Assembly: GCF_001887775.1 (NCBI RefSeq) | Contig: NZ_CP015519.1 | Location: 2,356,001 to 2,420,000 of the forward strand | Direction of reading: 5' to 3' | Length of the DNA stretch: 64,000 bases | From: Syntrophotalea acetylenivorans | Lineage (GTDB): Bacteria; Desulfobacterota; Desulfuromonadia; Desulfuromonadales; Syntrophotaleaceae | Shown here: in pieces, positions 1,448 through 28,204 of the stretch | How positions within the stretch are numbered: position 1 is the stretch's first letter | Layout of the letters: each line of letters begins with the position of its first letter | Notes under the pieces: generated by a model | Database searches by the model: none | Seen by the model: only the letters and a program-made list of their open reading frames with translations | Told to the model about the DNA's origin: nothing | Program-made: the position numbers and the translations under genes

Positions 1448-1987
1448 ATGAAGCAGACAGACGATCCTGGTAGTTGGAATCCTTACCTGGCTGGTGCCTT
1501 GACCGGTCTGGTGGCGGTGGCATCGGTGTTCTTTACCGGCAAGTATTTCGGCGCATCGACGTCCTTTGTGCGCACTGCAGGCATGTTGGAGCGGCTGGTC
1601 AACCCCGAGCGAGTAGCGCAGAACAGTTATTTCAGCAAATACCTCGAGTCCGGCGTGTCGGGTATAGATTGGCAATGGATGTTTGTCGTCGGCATTCTGC
1701 TCGGAGCCCTGATTGCTGCCGTCACTTCCGGATCTTTTCGCTTGCAGGCGGTGCCCGACATGTGGCAGCGTCGTTTCGGCGTTAAAACCGGTCTTGGCAG
1801 GTTTCTGACCTCCTTTATTGGCGGCGCGATCCTGCTGTTTGGTGCTCGGCTGGCCGGCGGTTGCCCCAGCGGTCATGGCCTGAGCGGGGTGATGCAACTG
1901 GCGGTGAGCGGCCTGGTGGCCCTGGTCTGTTTCTTCGCCGGCGGCATGCTGGTCGCACGCCTGCTGTACCGAAAGGGGGACGAATAA
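1448..1987 (+). CDS. YeeE/YedE family sulfur-transport membrane protein, first half
   Basis: 179-residue membrane protein of the YeeE/YedE (DUF395, TsuA-like) family, whose characterised members import thiosulfate or related sulfur species. The motif GARLAGGCPSGHGLSG carries the conserved glycine-cysteine segment that forms the sulfur path in TsuA. About four hydrophobic helices are visible. The start ATG is preceded by AAGGAG seven bases upstream. Its TAA overlaps the ATG of the next gene by one base, so the two are translationally coupled and probably form one two-chain transporter. Substrate is inferred from the family only. Confidence 0.85.
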   Translation: MKQTDDPGSWNPYLAGALTGLVAVASVFFTGKYFGASTSFVRTAGMLERLVNPERVAQNSYFSKYLESGVSGIDWQWMFVVGILLGALIAAVTSGSFRLQAVPDMWQRRFGVKTGLGRFLTSFIGGAILLFGARLAGGCPSGHGLSGVMQLAVSGLVALVCFFAGGMLVARLLYRKGDE

Positions 1988-2514
1988 TGAATCTGCTGAT
2001 CTGGGGTCTGGTGACCGGCGTACTGTTCGGTTTTTTGCTGCAGAAAGGGCGGGTGCTGCGTTACGACAAGCAGCTTGGTGCCTTGCGGTTGATTGACATG
2101 ACCATCGTCAAGTTCATGTTCTCCACCGTGCTGGTGGGCATGGTCGGCATCTACCTGCTCAACGATCTCGGCCTTGTAGAACTCAAACTCAAAGGGGCCG
2201 TGCTTGGCAGCAACATCATCGGTGGCCTGGTCTTCGGCGTTGGCTGGGGCCTGGTCGGCTACTGCCCCGGCACCTCTCTGGGGGCGCTAGGCGAGGGGCG
2301 TGTCGATGCCGTTGGCGGGATTCTCGGCATGATCTTCGGTGCTGCAGCTTTTGCCGAAGTCTATCCCCAACTCAAGGCATCAGTGATGACCTGGGGTGAC
2401 TATGGCAAGATAACTTTGCCGCAACTGTTGGGGGTCAATCACTGGCTGATCGTTGTCGTGATGATCGTGCTGGCGCTGGGCATGTTTCGCTGGTTCGAAA
2501 AGAAAGGGTTGTAA
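1987..2514 (+). CDS. YeeE/YedE family sulfur-transport membrane protein, second half
   Basis: 175-residue partner of the preceding gene. It has the corresponding motif GWGLVGYCPGTSLGALGEG, with the conserved Cys, and four hydrophobic segments ending in RWFEKKGL. The start overlaps the upstream stop (TAATG). Split YeeE/YedE pairs of this kind are common in Desulfuromonadota-like genomes. A strong hairpin follows 29 bases after the stop. The 3' half of this gene, together with its terminator, occurs again as a decayed copy at 4893-5212, so this intact gene is the likely parent. Confidence 0.86.
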   Translation: MNLLIWGLVTGVLFGFLLQKGRVLRYDKQLGALRLIDMTIVKFMFSTVLVGMVGIYLLNDLGLVELKLKGAVLGSNIIGGLVFGVGWGLVGYCPGTSLGALGEGRVDAVGGILGMIFGAAAFAEVYPQLKASVMTWGDYGKITLPQLLGVNHWLIVVVMIVLALGMFRWFEKKGL

Positions 2515-2543: not shown

Positions 2544-2581
2544 GGAAAGGGGCAGCTGGCTATGACCGGCTGCCCCTTTCC
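2544..2581 (+). terminator. Hairpin terminator of the YeeE/YedE operon
   Basis: A perfect 13-bp stem, GGAAAGGGGCAGC paired with GCTGCCCCTTTCC around a 12-base loop, sits 29 bases past the stop. There is no long T run after it, so efficiency is uncertain. A diverged copy with a longer stem lies at 5176-5212. Confidence 0.7.
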
Positions 2582-2677
2582 GCAAAACCCAGAGTGTCTA
2601 GTATCCTGGTGGCGATTCAGTTTATTGGAATTCTTTTTGCTCATAAAGGAAGACTAAGCAAAAAGGCAGACACCGAA

Positions 2678-4267
2678 TCACAGGCTATTTGCTCCAAGAG
2701 TGTAGGCACTTTTTCCTGTTTTTTTTGAGTCATACAGGGCCATATCTGCTTTTTTGAACAATTCTCCGAAGTCTCCATCATCGACATCCATGGCAATCCC
2801 GATACTGACAGAAATTTTGGTGTGCGGGAACTTCCGGGCAACTTTTACTTCAAATCCTGTCAGCAGTTGCTCAGCGCACTGTTTCGGCCTGTCCGAACCT
2901 TCCATCTGAGGAAGAATGATGGCAAATTCATCACCGCCAAGACGAAAGAGATTTTCAGCGGGAAAAAGCTGCTGCAGCAAGTCGGAAAAGGCGACCAGCA
3001 CTTTGTCTCCTTCAACGTGACCATGCTGATCATTGACTTCCTTAAAGTTATCAAGATCCGTGAGCAACAGAGCTGTACCGGACTGACAAGGGGTTTTCCG
3101 CATAAAGTCCTGAAGACTGCGCCTGTTATTCAATTTAGTCAAATGATCGGTGTGGGCATCGATCAGCAGCTTGTTTTTGTATTGATGTTCAAGAGTTATA
3201 TCCACAAAAATATACACATGGCCTGCCAGTACGCCAAAAATATCCTGTAGCCTTTCATCATGAATTTTCAGAACTTTATTCTTTGAAAGAAGCAACAGCC
3301 CTTCTTTTTCTTTCTCAATAATCCATCGTTTACTGCGAGTGAATGATTTAGAGTCATCGATCAAAAAATCAACCTTTTTGCCGATGAACTCGGTACGGTC
3401 AAGAGCAAAAATATTGATAAATTTTTGGTTAACACTCGTAATATTCCTGTCTTTGTCGGTCACCATGACTGGAAAAGGCAGTCCCTCAATCAAAATATTT
3501 AACTCGATTAGCAAGTTCTGCAGGTCGGTCACATCGCGGGCGAACCCAACTGTGCCGATAACCTCACCATCTGTGTCAAAGATCGGTGATTTATAGGTTT
3601 TAAACTTTCGAAGTTCATCACCGCATTTCACAGTTTCATCAAACAGGCAGGTTTCCTTCGTGTTGAGAACAATCTCTTCAGACTCCAGGCAAATATATTC
3701 CCCTTGGGCGTATTCATCAGGTTCAAGATCCCAGATGTAATAATGCCCGCGGCCTTCTATCTGAGCTTTGGTTTTATTGACGGTACGGCAGAAACTGTCG
3801 TTGACTTTTAGGTGAGCCCCACGCGCATCTTTGAACCAAATCAGATCGGGCAGACTGTCTATCAGGGTATCCAGATATTTTTGGCCAAGTATGGTCTCTT
3901 CCCGTTCTTTGAGATGCCTTAAAATCCCCGCAAAGGAGGCCTGGAGTTTGTCAGCAGCAAGAGGCTTGATCCAGACCTGGTCAAAGAGGTGGAAATTCTC
4001 TGCCAGAATAGGAAAGCTATCGGAAGTAAAACAACCTATCACGACAACCGGGTCATCTTTGATTGCCTCAATGCGCTCCAAGAATTCTGGTGCAACGCTT
4101 TCGAAATCAAGGATAATGACCGAGTAGTCGCTTAAATCGGTTTCATCGACATTGGGTGAGCAAAAAAACTGATGGGAAAACCTTTCCTCGGGTTGCATCC
4201 CTTGGAGAATCGTTTCGAGTTGAGGATCCTGTGAAGCAATAAAGATATTGAGTAACCGATGATACAT
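2678..4267 (-). CDS. Diguanylate cyclase with receiver-like, two PAS and GGDEF domains
   Basis: 529-residue protein. Residues about 1-125 look like a degenerate receiver domain (LLNIFIASQDPQLETILQGM, IILDFESV, GCFTSDSFPI), residues about 135-260 and 265-375 are PAS domains, and the last 160 form a GGDEF domain with intact RLGGDEFAI and the LTDLDNFKEVND metal-binding segment. It should make cyclic di-GMP from GTP. The product-inhibition RxxD site, nine residues before GGDEF in many cyclases, is absent (FPAE instead). I chose the ATG at 4267 because GAGGAG lies six bases before it; an in-frame ATG at 4360 would run into the IS fragment. The gene is visibly richer in A+T than its neighbours and lies between a transposase remnant and a duplicated gene end, suggesting acquisition. 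Confidence 0.88.
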   Translation of the reverse strand: MYHRLLNIFIASQDPQLETILQGMQPEERFSHQFFCSPNVDETDLSDYSVIILDFESVAPEFLERIEAIKDDPVVVIGCFTSDSFPILAENFHLFDQVWIKPLAADKLQASFAGILRHLKEREETILGQKYLDTLIDSLPDLIWFKDARGAHLKVNDSFCRTVNKTKAQIEGRGHYYIWDLEPDEYAQGEYICLESEEIVLNTKETCLFDETVKCGDELRKFKTYKSPIFDTDGEVIGTVGFARDVTDLQNLLIELNILIEGLPFPVMVTDKDRNITSVNQKFINIFALDRTEFIGKKVDFLIDDSKSFTRSKRWIIEKEKEGLLLLSKNKVLKIHDERLQDIFGVLAGHVYIFVDITLEHQYKNKLLIDAHTDHLTKLNNRRSLQDFMRKTPCQSGTALLLTDLDNFKEVNDQHGHVEGDKVLVAFSDLLQQLFPAENLFRLGGDEFAIILPQMEGSDRPKQCAEQLLTGFEVKVARKFPHTKISVSIGIAMDVDDGDFGELFKKADMALYDSKKTGKSAYTLGANSL

Positions 4268-4356
4268 ACTTAACTCCTCGGAAATATTAAGCGAACGGCC
4301 AAGCTGCAAAGTTCCTTCTTTTAGGGCCACCGATAAATAGAGTTTTCCTCCAATAC

Positions 4357-4581
4357 TCATGTGGCCAGATATTCTTTCGGCGTTAATTCCCCCAGCGCGG
4401 CGTGAGGTCGGATCTCGTTATATTTAATGATCCATTTGTTGGTTATTACCCGATCCTCTGACAATCGATGAAAAACATATAGGTCAAGACCCTCATTGCG
4501 ATAGATCCGATTAAAGTGTTCGATAAATGAGTTCTGACTTGGCCTTCCGGGCTTGATGATCTCAAGATGGACAATACCCAA
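4357..4581 (-). pseudogene. IS3-family transposase (OrfB) C-terminal fragment
   Basis: About 70 residues match the end of an IS3/IS150-type DDE integrase: EIIKPGRPSQNSFIEHFNR contains the conserved block leading to the catalytic Glu, and YNEIRPHAALGELTPKEY is the usual C-terminus. The N-terminal two thirds, including the two catalytic Asp residues, are missing and no OrfA or clear terminal repeats are visible. The stop codon abuts the diguanylate cyclase promoter region. This is a dead remnant marking a past insertion or recombination event. Confidence 0.85.
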
Positions 4582-4867
4582 CAGGCAAAAAGATTTCTAA
4601 GCTTGGATATGGCAACAGCCATGCCGAAAAGGGTTTATCAGTTGTTCCAATACTCCTATTAAAGTGAAGTTTAAGCCTCCGGCCGATCGTCTTTTCTCAA
4701 GGAGAATCAATAAGTGGCTGAAAAATTGACATAAAATGTTCCAGGGTACTGAGTCTGATTCTTTAGGGGATTTGGTGGGAAAAGATTTTGAATAGTCACT
4801 TTCCATAAGAGGACGAATTAGTCATCGTACACAAAGTGTGGCGCCAGGCTAAAACCGTGTCCCCACT

Positions 4868-4885
4868 TGTGGGGCATGCCCCACA
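4868..4885. repeat. Perfect 18-bp palindrome TGTGGGGCATGCCCCACA
   Basis: The sequence reads identically on both strands and lies eight bases before the point where similarity to the YedE gene begins. A further CCCCA/TGGGG pair just to the left could enlarge the hairpin. It may mark the recombination junction or be an operator; no gene follows directly. Confidence 0.6.
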
Positions 4886-4892
4886 TCGGCTA

Positions 4893-5145
4893 GGCCTTGT
4901 CGGCTATTGTCCGGGCACCCCTCTCGGTGCTATCGGTGAGGGTCCTGTGGATGCCTTTTGGGGAATTTTCAACATGCTATTGGGAGGCACTGCCTATGTG
5001 GACCTTTACCCACAGCTCAAAGAGGGTGTCTTGATCTGGAGGATCTACGAAAAAATCATTCCGCCACAGTTGTTCGGAGTGAATCCTTGGCGGATGGTGT
5101 TGGCGATGATCGTGCTGGCGCTGGTTCGAGAAGAAAGGGTTGTAA
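4893..5145 (+). pseudogene. Decayed partial copy of the YeeE/YedE gene (3' half)
   Basis: The translated segment GLVGYCPGTPLGAIGEGPVDAF...YPQLKEGVLIWRIYEKIIPPQLFGVNPW closely parallels residues 88 onward of the intact gene at 1987-2514. No N-terminal half, ribosome site or start is present. A 14-base deletion falls between two CGCTGG repeats near the end (in the parent, CGCTGG GCATGTTTCGCTGG), shifting the frame so that the old stop TAA at 5143-5145 is no longer in frame. The copy is clearly diverged at third positions, so the duplication is not recent. It is separated from the parent by the diguanylate cyclase gene and the IS3 remnant. Confidence 0.88.
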
Positions 5146-5175
5146 GTAGCGGCTTAAGGGGTTTAGTTACAATGG

Positions 5176-5212
5176 AAAGGGACAGCCGGTCATGACCGGC
5201 TGTCCCTTTTTT
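5176..5212 (+). terminator. Duplicated terminator hairpin, 34-nt perfect palindrome plus T run
   Basis: A 16-bp stem (AAAGGGACAGCCGGTC with GACCGGCTGTCCCTTT) with a two-base centre is followed by TTTTTT. It is the copy of the hairpin at 2544-2581; a stem G:C in the parent is A:T here on both arms, a compensatory change. It can also stop transcription of the convergent decarboxylase gene, whose stop lies at 5252. Confidence 0.85.
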
Positions 5213-5251: not shown

Positions 5252-6898
5252 TTACTTGCCGCTGTTGCGAACCTTGGCCCCCAGGGCATCGGTGAGTCGT
5301 TTCAAGGCCGGTGAGTGGTCGTGGGGATCGAGATGCACATCGAGAATCGCCGGACTGTCGGTGTGGGTCAAGGCGGCCTGCAGGGCCTGCTCGAAATCTT
5401 TTTCGCTGAAGATCTCAAATCCCTGGACGGCGCCAATGACCTCCGGTAGCCGGCTGAAGCGCCAGACGGGAACATCGTTGAAGCGGCCGTCGGTCATGGG
5501 CCGCTCGGTACCGTATCCCCCGTTGTTGAGTACTACCACAATGGGCGACAGGCCGAACCGGACCGCGGTGGAGAGTTCCATGCCGGTCATCTGAAAGGCG
5601 CCATCGCCCACCAGTACCAGGGGGCGCAGGTCGGGGCGGGCCAGCTGGGCGCCGATGGCCCCGGGGACCGCAAAGCCCATGGAGGTATAGTAGGCCGGGG
5701 AGAGGAAGGCCGCCGGGTGGCGGATGGTCAGATCGGTGGCGGCAAACATGGCATCGCCGGGATCGGCCAGCAGAACCATATGGTCGTCGATGAAGGTTTC
5801 CAGATATTCAAAGAGGCGGCGGATGGTGATGGGCTCATCCTGTGCTTCAAAGGGCTGTGGCGCCGCTGTCGGTTTAGCTGCGGCAGTGCTCCGGTGTGGC
5901 AGGTTCTGGTCGAGCAGGCCGGGCAAAAAATCGCCCAGCAGCACCTCGGGGTACTGGTGGAAGGCGATGGAGCTGCCGTCGCTGGAGGAGGAGATGGTCA
6001 GGGCCTGATCGAGCTTGGCGGTGAAGATGCCCAGATTGACATCGGTCATGAAGGCGCCGAGCATCAGCAGACAGTCGCTCTGCTCCACTGCCTGTCGGGC
6101 CTTTTCCTTGCCCACGGCTCCCTCGTAGACACCGAGAAACAGAGGGTGATCCTCGCATAGGGTCGATTTGCTCAAGGGGGTGGTGGCAAAGGGGATGCCG
6201 GTGGCTTCCAGTAGCTGCAACAGGGGTTGCTGCAGGCCGAAACGCTGGATTTCGATGCCGGCGATCAGCACCGGACGCTGAGCTTGTGCGAGTCGTTGCA
6301 CCGTCTCGGTCAACGCCTCGTGCAAGGCGTCGGGATCGCTGGCCGCTGCCGGAGGCGAAGGATCGCCGCTGCAGCTGCAGGCTGCCTCAGTCAGGTCGCG
6401 GGGCAACTCGATGTACACCGGTTGTTTGTGGCGCACCGCAGCTGCCAGTACCCGGTCGATCTCACAGCAGCCGTTTTCCACGTCGATCAGATCGGTGGCG
6501 GCGACGGTGAGGTGGCGGAAGATGTTGAGCTGGGTATCGAAATCCCGCACTTTATGATGCAGCAGGGGATTGCGATGGCGCTCGTTGAGTCCCGGCGCCC
6601 CGCTGATGACCACCAGCGGCGATTTCTCGGCAAAGGCCTGGGCGGTGGTATTGGCGATCTTCAGGCCGCCGACGCAATAGGTGACGCAGACCACGCCGAG
6701 GCCCTTTAGGCGGGCGTAGGCATCGGCGGCAAAGCCCGCCCCCTGTTCGTCGCAGGTGTTGATCATCTGCAGAGGGCTTTCTTCCAGTTGGCGGTAGAAA
6801 TCGAGAATATAATCGCCGGGTACGCCGAACACATGGTCGACGTCATAGTCGATAAGGCGGCGGATCAGATAGCCGCTGACGGTGGTTTCACCCTTCAT
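5252..6898 (-). CDS. TPP-dependent 2-keto acid (pyruvate/indolepyruvate-type) decarboxylase
   Basis: 548-residue thiamine diphosphate enzyme of the pyruvate/indolepyruvate decarboxylase family, which turns a 2-keto acid into an aldehyde and CO2. Domains in order: PYR (1-170, with the cofactor-activating E51 in CDEQGAGFAADAYARLKG), central domain (190-330), and PP (355-548, with GDGAFQMTGMELSTA...VVLNNGG, the GDG-NN ThDP-binding motif). The adjacent histidines H114-H115 (LLHHKV) match the catalytic HH of bacterial pyruvate decarboxylase, separating it from acetolactate synthase. Substrate cannot be fixed by eye. It begins eight bases after the acyltransferase gene and ends the three-gene minus-strand operon. 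An aldehyde product could feed the alcohol dehydrogenases elsewhere in the window. Confidence 0.85.
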   Translation of the reverse strand: MKGETTVSGYLIRRLIDYDVDHVFGVPGDYILDFYRQLEESPLQMINTCDEQGAGFAADAYARLKGLGVVCVTYCVGGLKIANTTAQAFAEKSPLVVISGAPGLNERHRNPLLHHKVRDFDTQLNIFRHLTVAATDLIDVENGCCEIDRVLAAAVRHKQPVYIELPRDLTEAACSCSGDPSPPAAASDPDALHEALTETVQRLAQAQRPVLIAGIEIQRFGLQQPLLQLLEATGIPFATTPLSKSTLCEDHPLFLGVYEGAVGKEKARQAVEQSDCLLMLGAFMTDVNLGIFTAKLDQALTISSSSDGSSIAFHQYPEVLLGDFLPGLLDQNLPHRSTAAAKPTAAPQPFEAQDEPITIRRLFEYLETFIDDHMVLLADPGDAMFAATDLTIRHPAAFLSPAYYTSMGFAVPGAIGAQLARPDLRPLVLVGDGAFQMTGMELSTAVRFGLSPIVVVLNNGGYGTERPMTDGRFNDVPVWRFSRLPEVIGAVQGFEIFSEKDFEQALQAALTHTDSPAILDVHLDPHDHSPALKRLTDALGAKVRNSGK

Positions 6899-27229: not shown

Positions 27230-28204
27230 AGAAACTTCCTTCCTAAATGCTTTGCTGGTAGCTGATTTCGGCACTCTGTAGAGATGCCTTGATATATGAA
27301 AACGAATATTTGTGAAGATTTAAATCTCAAAGGGCGCTGGCAGTTCTGCGCGGTACCCTGCTGCTGAGAATAAAGAGATATTACAATTTTATTCTGGCAC
27401 TCACTTGCAGTACGAGAGACCTGCGATATAACTGTGTCCAGGCTTCAGCTTAGTTTTTAAACTGTAAGAAGAGCAATAGAACAACGTTTAACTTTCCCAT
27501 GCGTTTTCGATCTTTAAGTTACGTGTCCGGAATTGAAAAGAGGTTCTTGTCCTTTCGGAAAGAACCTCCGGTGCGTCGAAACACAAGGTGCGGCGCAGAA
27601 GGACTCTCCTTTCCAAAGCGGGAGGTCGCACCGTTTCCAGCAAGACCCGTAGGCCTCTGACCTTGGAGTAGATATCTTTAGGTCGGTCGGCTCGGAGATC
27701 GATTAGATTGTATGTCAATGCGCAGCCCCGGATTCGCTCTTGAGAAAGGTCTTGAGATGACTTCCGGGGTTGATGTCAGTTTAAAATCCGGTTTGCGAAA
27801 GCCTTTCTGTGAGCGCTTTGCTGCAAAATTGTATGCGACGCTAGAAATTACACCAATGGTAGGGCTTTTTCAACAGAAAAGAGTGTTTGCGTGACCTCCG
27901 GGGGCGGGGTTTGAAGCGGACCCGGCGAGGACATGGTGCATAATGTAACACCCGCAAGAGACCCATAATGGAACACTTTGACACGTAATGTTTGCCCGGG
28001 TTGTTGTTTTATTGTTCGTTGGGCGTAATGGCGGTGCTTTTTGCTCCCCTGGGAGGAGGGTCTTGGTCGAGAAAATTAAACAGCGATTTGTTTTTCTCTT
28101 CAGGGGTTGCCAGCAAGGGCGCTGATGTTTGGCCGATTTGGAGGCTCTTTCAGGGAGGTTATGGGTCGGCGTTTGATCCCTTAATTGTTGCATTAATGGA
28201 GCGC
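27230..28204. other. Long gene-free region upstream of the first tandem alcohol dehydrogenase
   Basis: About 1 kb with no convincing gene. A minus-strand frame of 76 codons (27488-27718) has no ribosome site and no recognised family. The segment 27540-27640 is rich in inverted repeats, including a hairpin at 27540-27568. The rest is mixed in composition and might contain a regulatory RNA or activator sites for the sigma-54 promoter at 28205. Confidence 0.5.
27540..27568. repeat. Strong hairpin in the gene-free region
   Basis: GAGGTTCTT pairs with AAGAACCTC and, inside a one-base bulge, TCC with GGA around a TTTC loop. It may be an RNA structure or a leftover terminator; no T run follows. Confidence 0.5.

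Follow-up and report, generated by a model that had tools for sequence, protein, structure and literature searches.

A putative mosaic of imported DNA and insertion sequences adjoining a predicted native terminator in Syntrophotalea acetylenivorans

The locus and its repeated segment

The window considered here is a stretch of 64,000 nucleotides (2356001-2420000) from the 3.22-Mb single-contig genome of Syntrophotalea acetylenivorans; unless stated otherwise, positions are counted from its first letter. Near its start lie two half-genes of a YeeE/YedE-type sulfur transporter (yedE), a diguanylate cyclase gene, pieces of insertion sequences (IS), a second piece of yedE, and a decarboxylase gene that is read toward that piece from the opposite strand (Table 1). 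A hairpin follows each of the two yedE ends.

Table 1. Features of the yedE-decarboxylase locus, in window coordinates
Feature	Position	Strand	Basis and remarks
YeeE/YedE-type sulfur transporter, first half-gene, intact	1448-1987	+	Pfam Sulf_transp, E 7e-27; 83-85% nt identity to four congeners
YeeE/YedE-type transporter, second half-gene (copy 1), intact, predicted native	1987-2514	+	Pfam Sulf_transp, E 8e-15; 83-87% aa identity to four congeners
Copy-1 terminator hairpin (predicted)	2546-2579	+	Fold and alignment with relatives; T run cut to three T
IS3-family right end, 43 bp, fused to copy-1 terminator	2577-2619	+	Ends in inverted repeat GGCGATTCA
PAS-GGDEF diguanylate cyclase gene (about 4267-2678) with flanks, predicted imported	2620-4301	-	Nucleotide identity to another genus
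Second IS3-type transposase gene remnant (rve_3)	4302-4561	-	Pfam rve_3, E 1e-19; 71% nt identity to G000:C1:3211781-3212010
Upstream flank of GGDEF gene	4562-4892		71-73% nt identity to G006 and G012; homology stops at yedE junction
Divergent YedE-type gene fragment	4893-5117	+	75 codons, in frame, no stops
Putative mosaic junction zone	5104-5124	+	Change point and alignment; holds CGCTGG repeat and 14-nt offset
yedE coding tail, native type (predicted)	5119-5145	+	Out of frame with preceding fragment; 1/27 differences
Copy-2 terminator hairpin, predicted native	5176-5209		Perfect 34-bp palindrome; T run 5207-5212 on +
Thiamine-diphosphate-dependent decarboxylase family gene	5252-6898	-	Pfam TPP_enzyme N/M/C; converges on hairpin

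A preliminary description of this DNA held that 2248-2582 reappears at 4893-5212. The repeat is real, with an aligned extent of 2248-2579 (copy 1) against 4893-5209 (copy 2), and the 14-nt gap flanked by CGCTGG and the separate 1-nt gap that had been described are both present in the alignment. Among direct repeats within the first 9 kb, the top two are the ends of this repeat, 57 nt (88%) and 46 nt (85%) long, and in a search of the genome with the yedE end and hairpin the two copies alone match over most of the length, the remaining matches being short.

A probable recombination boundary within copy 2

Divergence between the copies is unevenly distributed. Over the gap-free coding sites (2248-2472 against 4893-5117) 74 of 225 differ, as opposed to 8 of 90 gap-free sites in the tail and hairpin (Fisher p 4e-6), and third codon positions far exceed the non-coding tail in divergence (43/75 and 7/63; p 1.5e-8). 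A change-point scan puts the break best at about 2459 in copy 1 (p 0.0005 by permutation). This abrupt fall in divergence argues that copy 2 is a mosaic, a segment with two histories, and that the coding part and the tail of what had been described as a duplicated, decayed 3' half differ in age. The CGCTGG-flanked 14-nt "deletion" sits at the mosaic boundary and may itself be the join.

In the preliminary description the gene was thought to have decayed while selection preserved the hairpin, and a comparison of coding and hairpin substitution rates was proposed. Run as proposed, that comparison does give the anticipated contrast (74/225 against 5/34), but it measures a recombination boundary rather than selection on the hairpin, because conservation is as high in the coding tail (1/27) and the spacer (2/23) as in the hairpin itself. 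Slower evolution of the hairpin was sought and not found relative to the adjoining spacer, and since all three parts of the tail show similarly low divergence, the hairpin does not appear to be specially conserved. A diverged coding half next to a conserved hairpin can thus mimic hairpin selection, and it is the comparison of codon positions, spacer and relatives that exposes the boundary.

The divergent yedE piece

The coding part of copy 2 does not look like a pseudogene left to drift. Its differences from copy 1 fall 16, 15 and 43 at the three codon positions (75 sites each), a distribution unlike the decay that had been claimed, and an open frame runs through it for 78 codons without a stop. 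It is about equidistant from copy 1 (67% nt identity) and from the yedE genes of the four congeners, G001-G004 (66-68%). Where the base is the same in copy 1 and in every one of these congeners, changes private to copy 2 number 19/125 at positions 1 and 2 and 12/27 at position 3 (Fisher p 0.0026), a third-position bias that points to past purifying selection; the piece was in all probability a working gene over most of its history. That said, its dN of 0.21-0.25 exceeds the 0.02-0.13 found among the native genes, so that a measure of decay was probably added to an older functional past. Its dS is 1.8-2.6 in the comparisons where it could be computed, one of the five having given no value. Neutral decay of one duplicate was considered as a sufficient cause and set aside in view of the codon-position counts, the change point and the private changes.

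The frame that contains the piece (4836-5195, 119 aa) has no Pfam match at E<=0.001, and hence none to PF04143 (YeeE/YedE); its homology becomes visible only by direct comparison with yedE genes, with a best E of 5e-29 outside its own genome. No donor emerged from 136 genomes of the order, 277 of the class and 395 of the phylum (overlapping sets), where the best match outside its own genome, at 66% aa identity, lies in the window's genus. A second yedE of the divergent type was sought in the four congeners, two of which are less than 90% complete: the piece as query gave one match per genome, and copy 1 as query one close match in each plus one weak match in G004. Phylogenetic placement failed, the piece offering 75 codons and a long branch, and no starred branch contains it; a topology for the 225 nt that makes the two copies sisters was not rejected either (p-AU 0.51). 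The protein tree has 11 rows and the DNA tree 9, rows in which the motif found no match having been dropped (G005, G006 and G010, or three of the six family genomes, and 12 of 14 extra loci).

DNA between the copies

The DNA between the two copies is of several kinds. Just after its stem, the copy-1 hairpin runs into TTTCCGCAAAACCC, the start of a 43-bp IS end that also terminates three near-identical 1.22-kb copies elsewhere in the genome. These intact copies have the ends TGAATCGCC / GGCGATTCA and encode a transposase with HTH_21 and rve domains, and from these ends and domains we take the element to belong to the IS3 family. The likeness to that family lies in the intact copies; at copy 1 just the 43 bp persist. 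Elsewhere in the same genome (about 2567.2-2571.3 kb; locus L147, 1165-5328), a pair of near-identical IS3-family copies, oppositely oriented, encloses two open reading frames, in the manner of a composite element, and one of these frames is presumably polysaccharide-deacetylase-like.

Next to the 43-bp end, the GGDEF region is 90.7% identical in nucleotides to G006 and, from 2665, 90.5% identical to G012, both of another genus. At E 1e-60 it has matches in 3 of 136 genomes, its own included, and none in G001-G004 (at most ten candidates were scored per genome in either case), and the gene probably came from a donor resembling that sister genus. An origin of the yedE piece from the same donor was examined and found no support, for the yedE of that genus is 46-49% identical to the piece in amino acids, against 64-66% for the window's genus. 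The upstream region of the imported gene is interrupted by the second IS remnant, and homology of the flank beyond it ends at most 7 bp from the point at which the similarity between G006 and G012 also breaks off.

This edge of the GGDEF region (4859-4893) has almost the same end point in all three genomes (the present one, G006 and G012), adjoins the palindrome GTGGGGCATGCCCCAC, and has different neighbours each time; it could mark the boundary of a mobile module. A genome search for repeats of the palindromic stretch near 4868-4885 gave short, weak matches only. In G006 and G012 the GGDEF gene is followed by a second GGDEF gene (with a CHASE5 domain in G006) and a third open reading frame; the window retains the first GGDEF gene of this series only.

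The two hairpins and a matched pair change

Both hairpins fold far better than shuffled sequences (z -7.37 for copy 1, -6.51 for copy 2). The stem of copy 2 had been described as the longer one, and RNAfold does pair 17 bases there and 16 in copy 1; in stability, however, the order is reversed, with -34.5 kcal/mol for copy 1 (2540-2590) and -30.3 kcal/mol for copy 2. Copy 2 has the form of an intrinsic terminator, a stable G+C-rich stem-loop with TTTTTT at 5207-5212 on the plus strand, the T run already reported, and just TTTCCATTG on the minus strand. In copy 1 the IS end stands where a T run would directly follow the stem, and of the two hairpins this is the altered one. A scan for consensus promoters and terminators found fewer sites than in shuffles, reporting copy 2 as a 5-pair stem only and copy 1 not at all.

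The reported change of a stem G:C pair to A:T on both arms was confirmed. The pair lies at 2552/2573 in copy 1 and 5182/5203 in copy 2, and exact alignment places it within the stem (columns 9/30). Since six of the seven aligned hairpins keep G:C and copy 2 alone has A:U in the transcript, it is copy 2 that carries the derived state. A second covarying pair (columns 15/24) reads U:A in G004 and G006, and the remaining five hairpins have G:C. Among these seven related sequences 2 of 15 pairs are changed on both arms, in three cells; two such pairs arise in 41 of 500 shuffles, and three cells, or the covariation score, in 3 of 500. In none of six slid controls on the yedE strand did a pair change on both sides, against two in the real stem, and by a post hoc estimate the chance that the second of two assumed random stem substitutions restores the first is about 1%. 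Such pair changes would be the normal covariation of a maintained terminator stem. That selection held the hairpin after duplication does not follow, as one pair is no demonstration of it and a single template switch would give the same result.

Gene order and the use of the terminator

In three congeners (G001, G002 and G004) the hairpin comes directly after yedE, with the convergent decarboxylase gene next, and yedE and the decarboxylase gene are convergent neighbours in the family genomes G005, G006, G008 and G010 as well. In G003, three minus-strand genes of the sugar-modification type, encoding a DegT-type aminotransferase, a GFO/IDH/MocA oxidoreductase and an acyltransferase, lie between yedE and the hairpin (L055, 2316-5225), a second insertion at the yedE/terminator site. 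The distance from hairpin to decarboxylase stop codon is 41-42 nt in all four congeners and in the window, where it is 42 nt for copy 2, and this constancy of order and spacing argues that the copy-2 hairpin is the native terminator of the locus. Copies 1 and 2 share the spacer that precedes the hairpin, with which the congener spacers hardly align.

The conserved distance speaks for a role of the copy-2 hairpin in ending the decarboxylase transcript, as do two separate insertions, in the window and in G003, that have left the hairpin attached to that gene; the role is plausible, if weakly supported. Of 105 cells, 96.2% are paired on the decarboxylase strand and 92.4% on the yedE strand. When the two columns nearest the loop (17 and 18) are set aside and columns 3-16 are counted, the one-sided changes of the six decarboxylase-linked hairpins leave five cells paired on the decarboxylase strand only and one on the yedE strand only, counts that include one state common to G001 and G004 and another common to G004 and G006, and so perhaps not independent. 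The sole one-sided change of copy 1 in these columns pairs on the yedE strand.

Use of the hairpin in both directions would fit these observations best. Mapped intrinsic terminators are over-represented between convergent genes according to PMC7566282, and the copy-2 hairpin resembles bidirectional intrinsic terminators in its G+C-rich stem, its conserved place between converging genes, its A-rich 5' flank and its 3' T run. It differs in its T run, of which the yedE strand clearly has the better one; this counts against a role for the decarboxylase. Copy 1, which has lost the decarboxylase, has a U-G pair on the yedE strand, and G003, which has lost yedE, has one on the decarboxylase strand. 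The idea that two-way terminators split by insertions generally acquire single-arm stem changes compatible with pairing only in the RNA that is still made is improbable; were it general, such rearrangements would reveal on which strand of a bidirectional terminator selection acts. The locus offers a small natural experiment of this kind, one worth extending across many genomes.

A proposed history and its alternatives

We favour, with a probability of roughly 0.8, a mosaic of imported DNA and IS elements adjoining a native terminator, though the order of events would have to be read from one genome. The ancestral order, as the relatives have it, was yedE, terminator and convergent decarboxylase, with the terminator presumably used both ways. 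In this genome foreign DNA has since arrived on the yedE side of the terminator, comprising the GGDEF gene, two IS3-type elements of which pieces remain, and the divergent yedE piece. The yedE end and terminator stretch now flanks the insert on both sides, and these flanking duplicates may go back to an integration event that used the yedE tail as its anchor, or to a short-lived tandem duplication. A later IS-adjacent deletion would have shortened the T run of copy 1, and the copy-2 hairpin is the old terminator, still joined to the decarboxylase. Simple single-crossover integration of a circle was considered and disfavoured, because it would make the tail of copy 1 foreign, and the spacer shared with copy 2 argues against that. 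Homology-facilitated illegitimate recombination, in which foreign DNA becomes joined to a resident gene through homology at one end and no more than short matches at the opposite end (PMC3240628), is similar; the present locus differs in the involvement of IS elements and in having about 100 bp of target on both sides.

One alternative is the original one, a single duplication of 2248-2582 followed by neutral coding decay, with purifying selection holding the hairpin for the decarboxylase. It accounts for the repeat and the matched pair change, is compatible with the sister relationship that the tree of the piece did not reject, and gains something from G003, whose hairpin stays with the decarboxylase though an unrelated insert separates it from yedE. 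Against this stand the uniformly low divergence of tail, spacer and hairpin, all far below that of the coding part, the third-position bias of the private changes and the 78-codon open frame. The change point and the codon-position pattern largely refute it, and we consider it very improbable: of the preliminary account, the repeat and the matched stem change stand, and the single decaying duplicate under hairpin selection does not. Another alternative, really a variant of the mosaic history that differs in the origin of the divergent piece, has an ancient functional tandem paralogue lying by the decarboxylase, its tail and terminator homogenized with copy 1 by gene conversion before the GGDEF import truncated it. 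Past purifying selection on the piece, its nearest kin in the window's own genus and the 4893 junction, which breaks the gene internally at the end of the imported module, would all suit such a paralogue. None of the four congeners, of which two are less than 90% complete, carries a second copy of the divergent type, however, and we regard this variant as unlikely, if less so than a single duplication.

Under the mosaic history the matched G:C to A:T change would have kept the stem paired on both strands, either through compensatory selection or through one template switch between the arms. Quasipalindrome mutations of the latter kind are described in PMC8794818, and copy 2 is alike in combining a matched both-arm change with a perfected palindrome: it alone of the seven hairpins is perfect and spacer-free, with 0 mismatches against 2-4. 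A switch that rewrote both members of the pair at once is possible, at somewhat less than even odds, since one changed pair is indistinguishable from two point mutations through a one-sided intermediate, which are equally possible, and the palindromic centre could be ancestral, each half occurring in other congeners.

Elsewhere in the window, positions 27590-27709 of the minus strand match the Rfam molybdenum/tungsten cofactor riboswitch (RF01055) at 59.8 bits.
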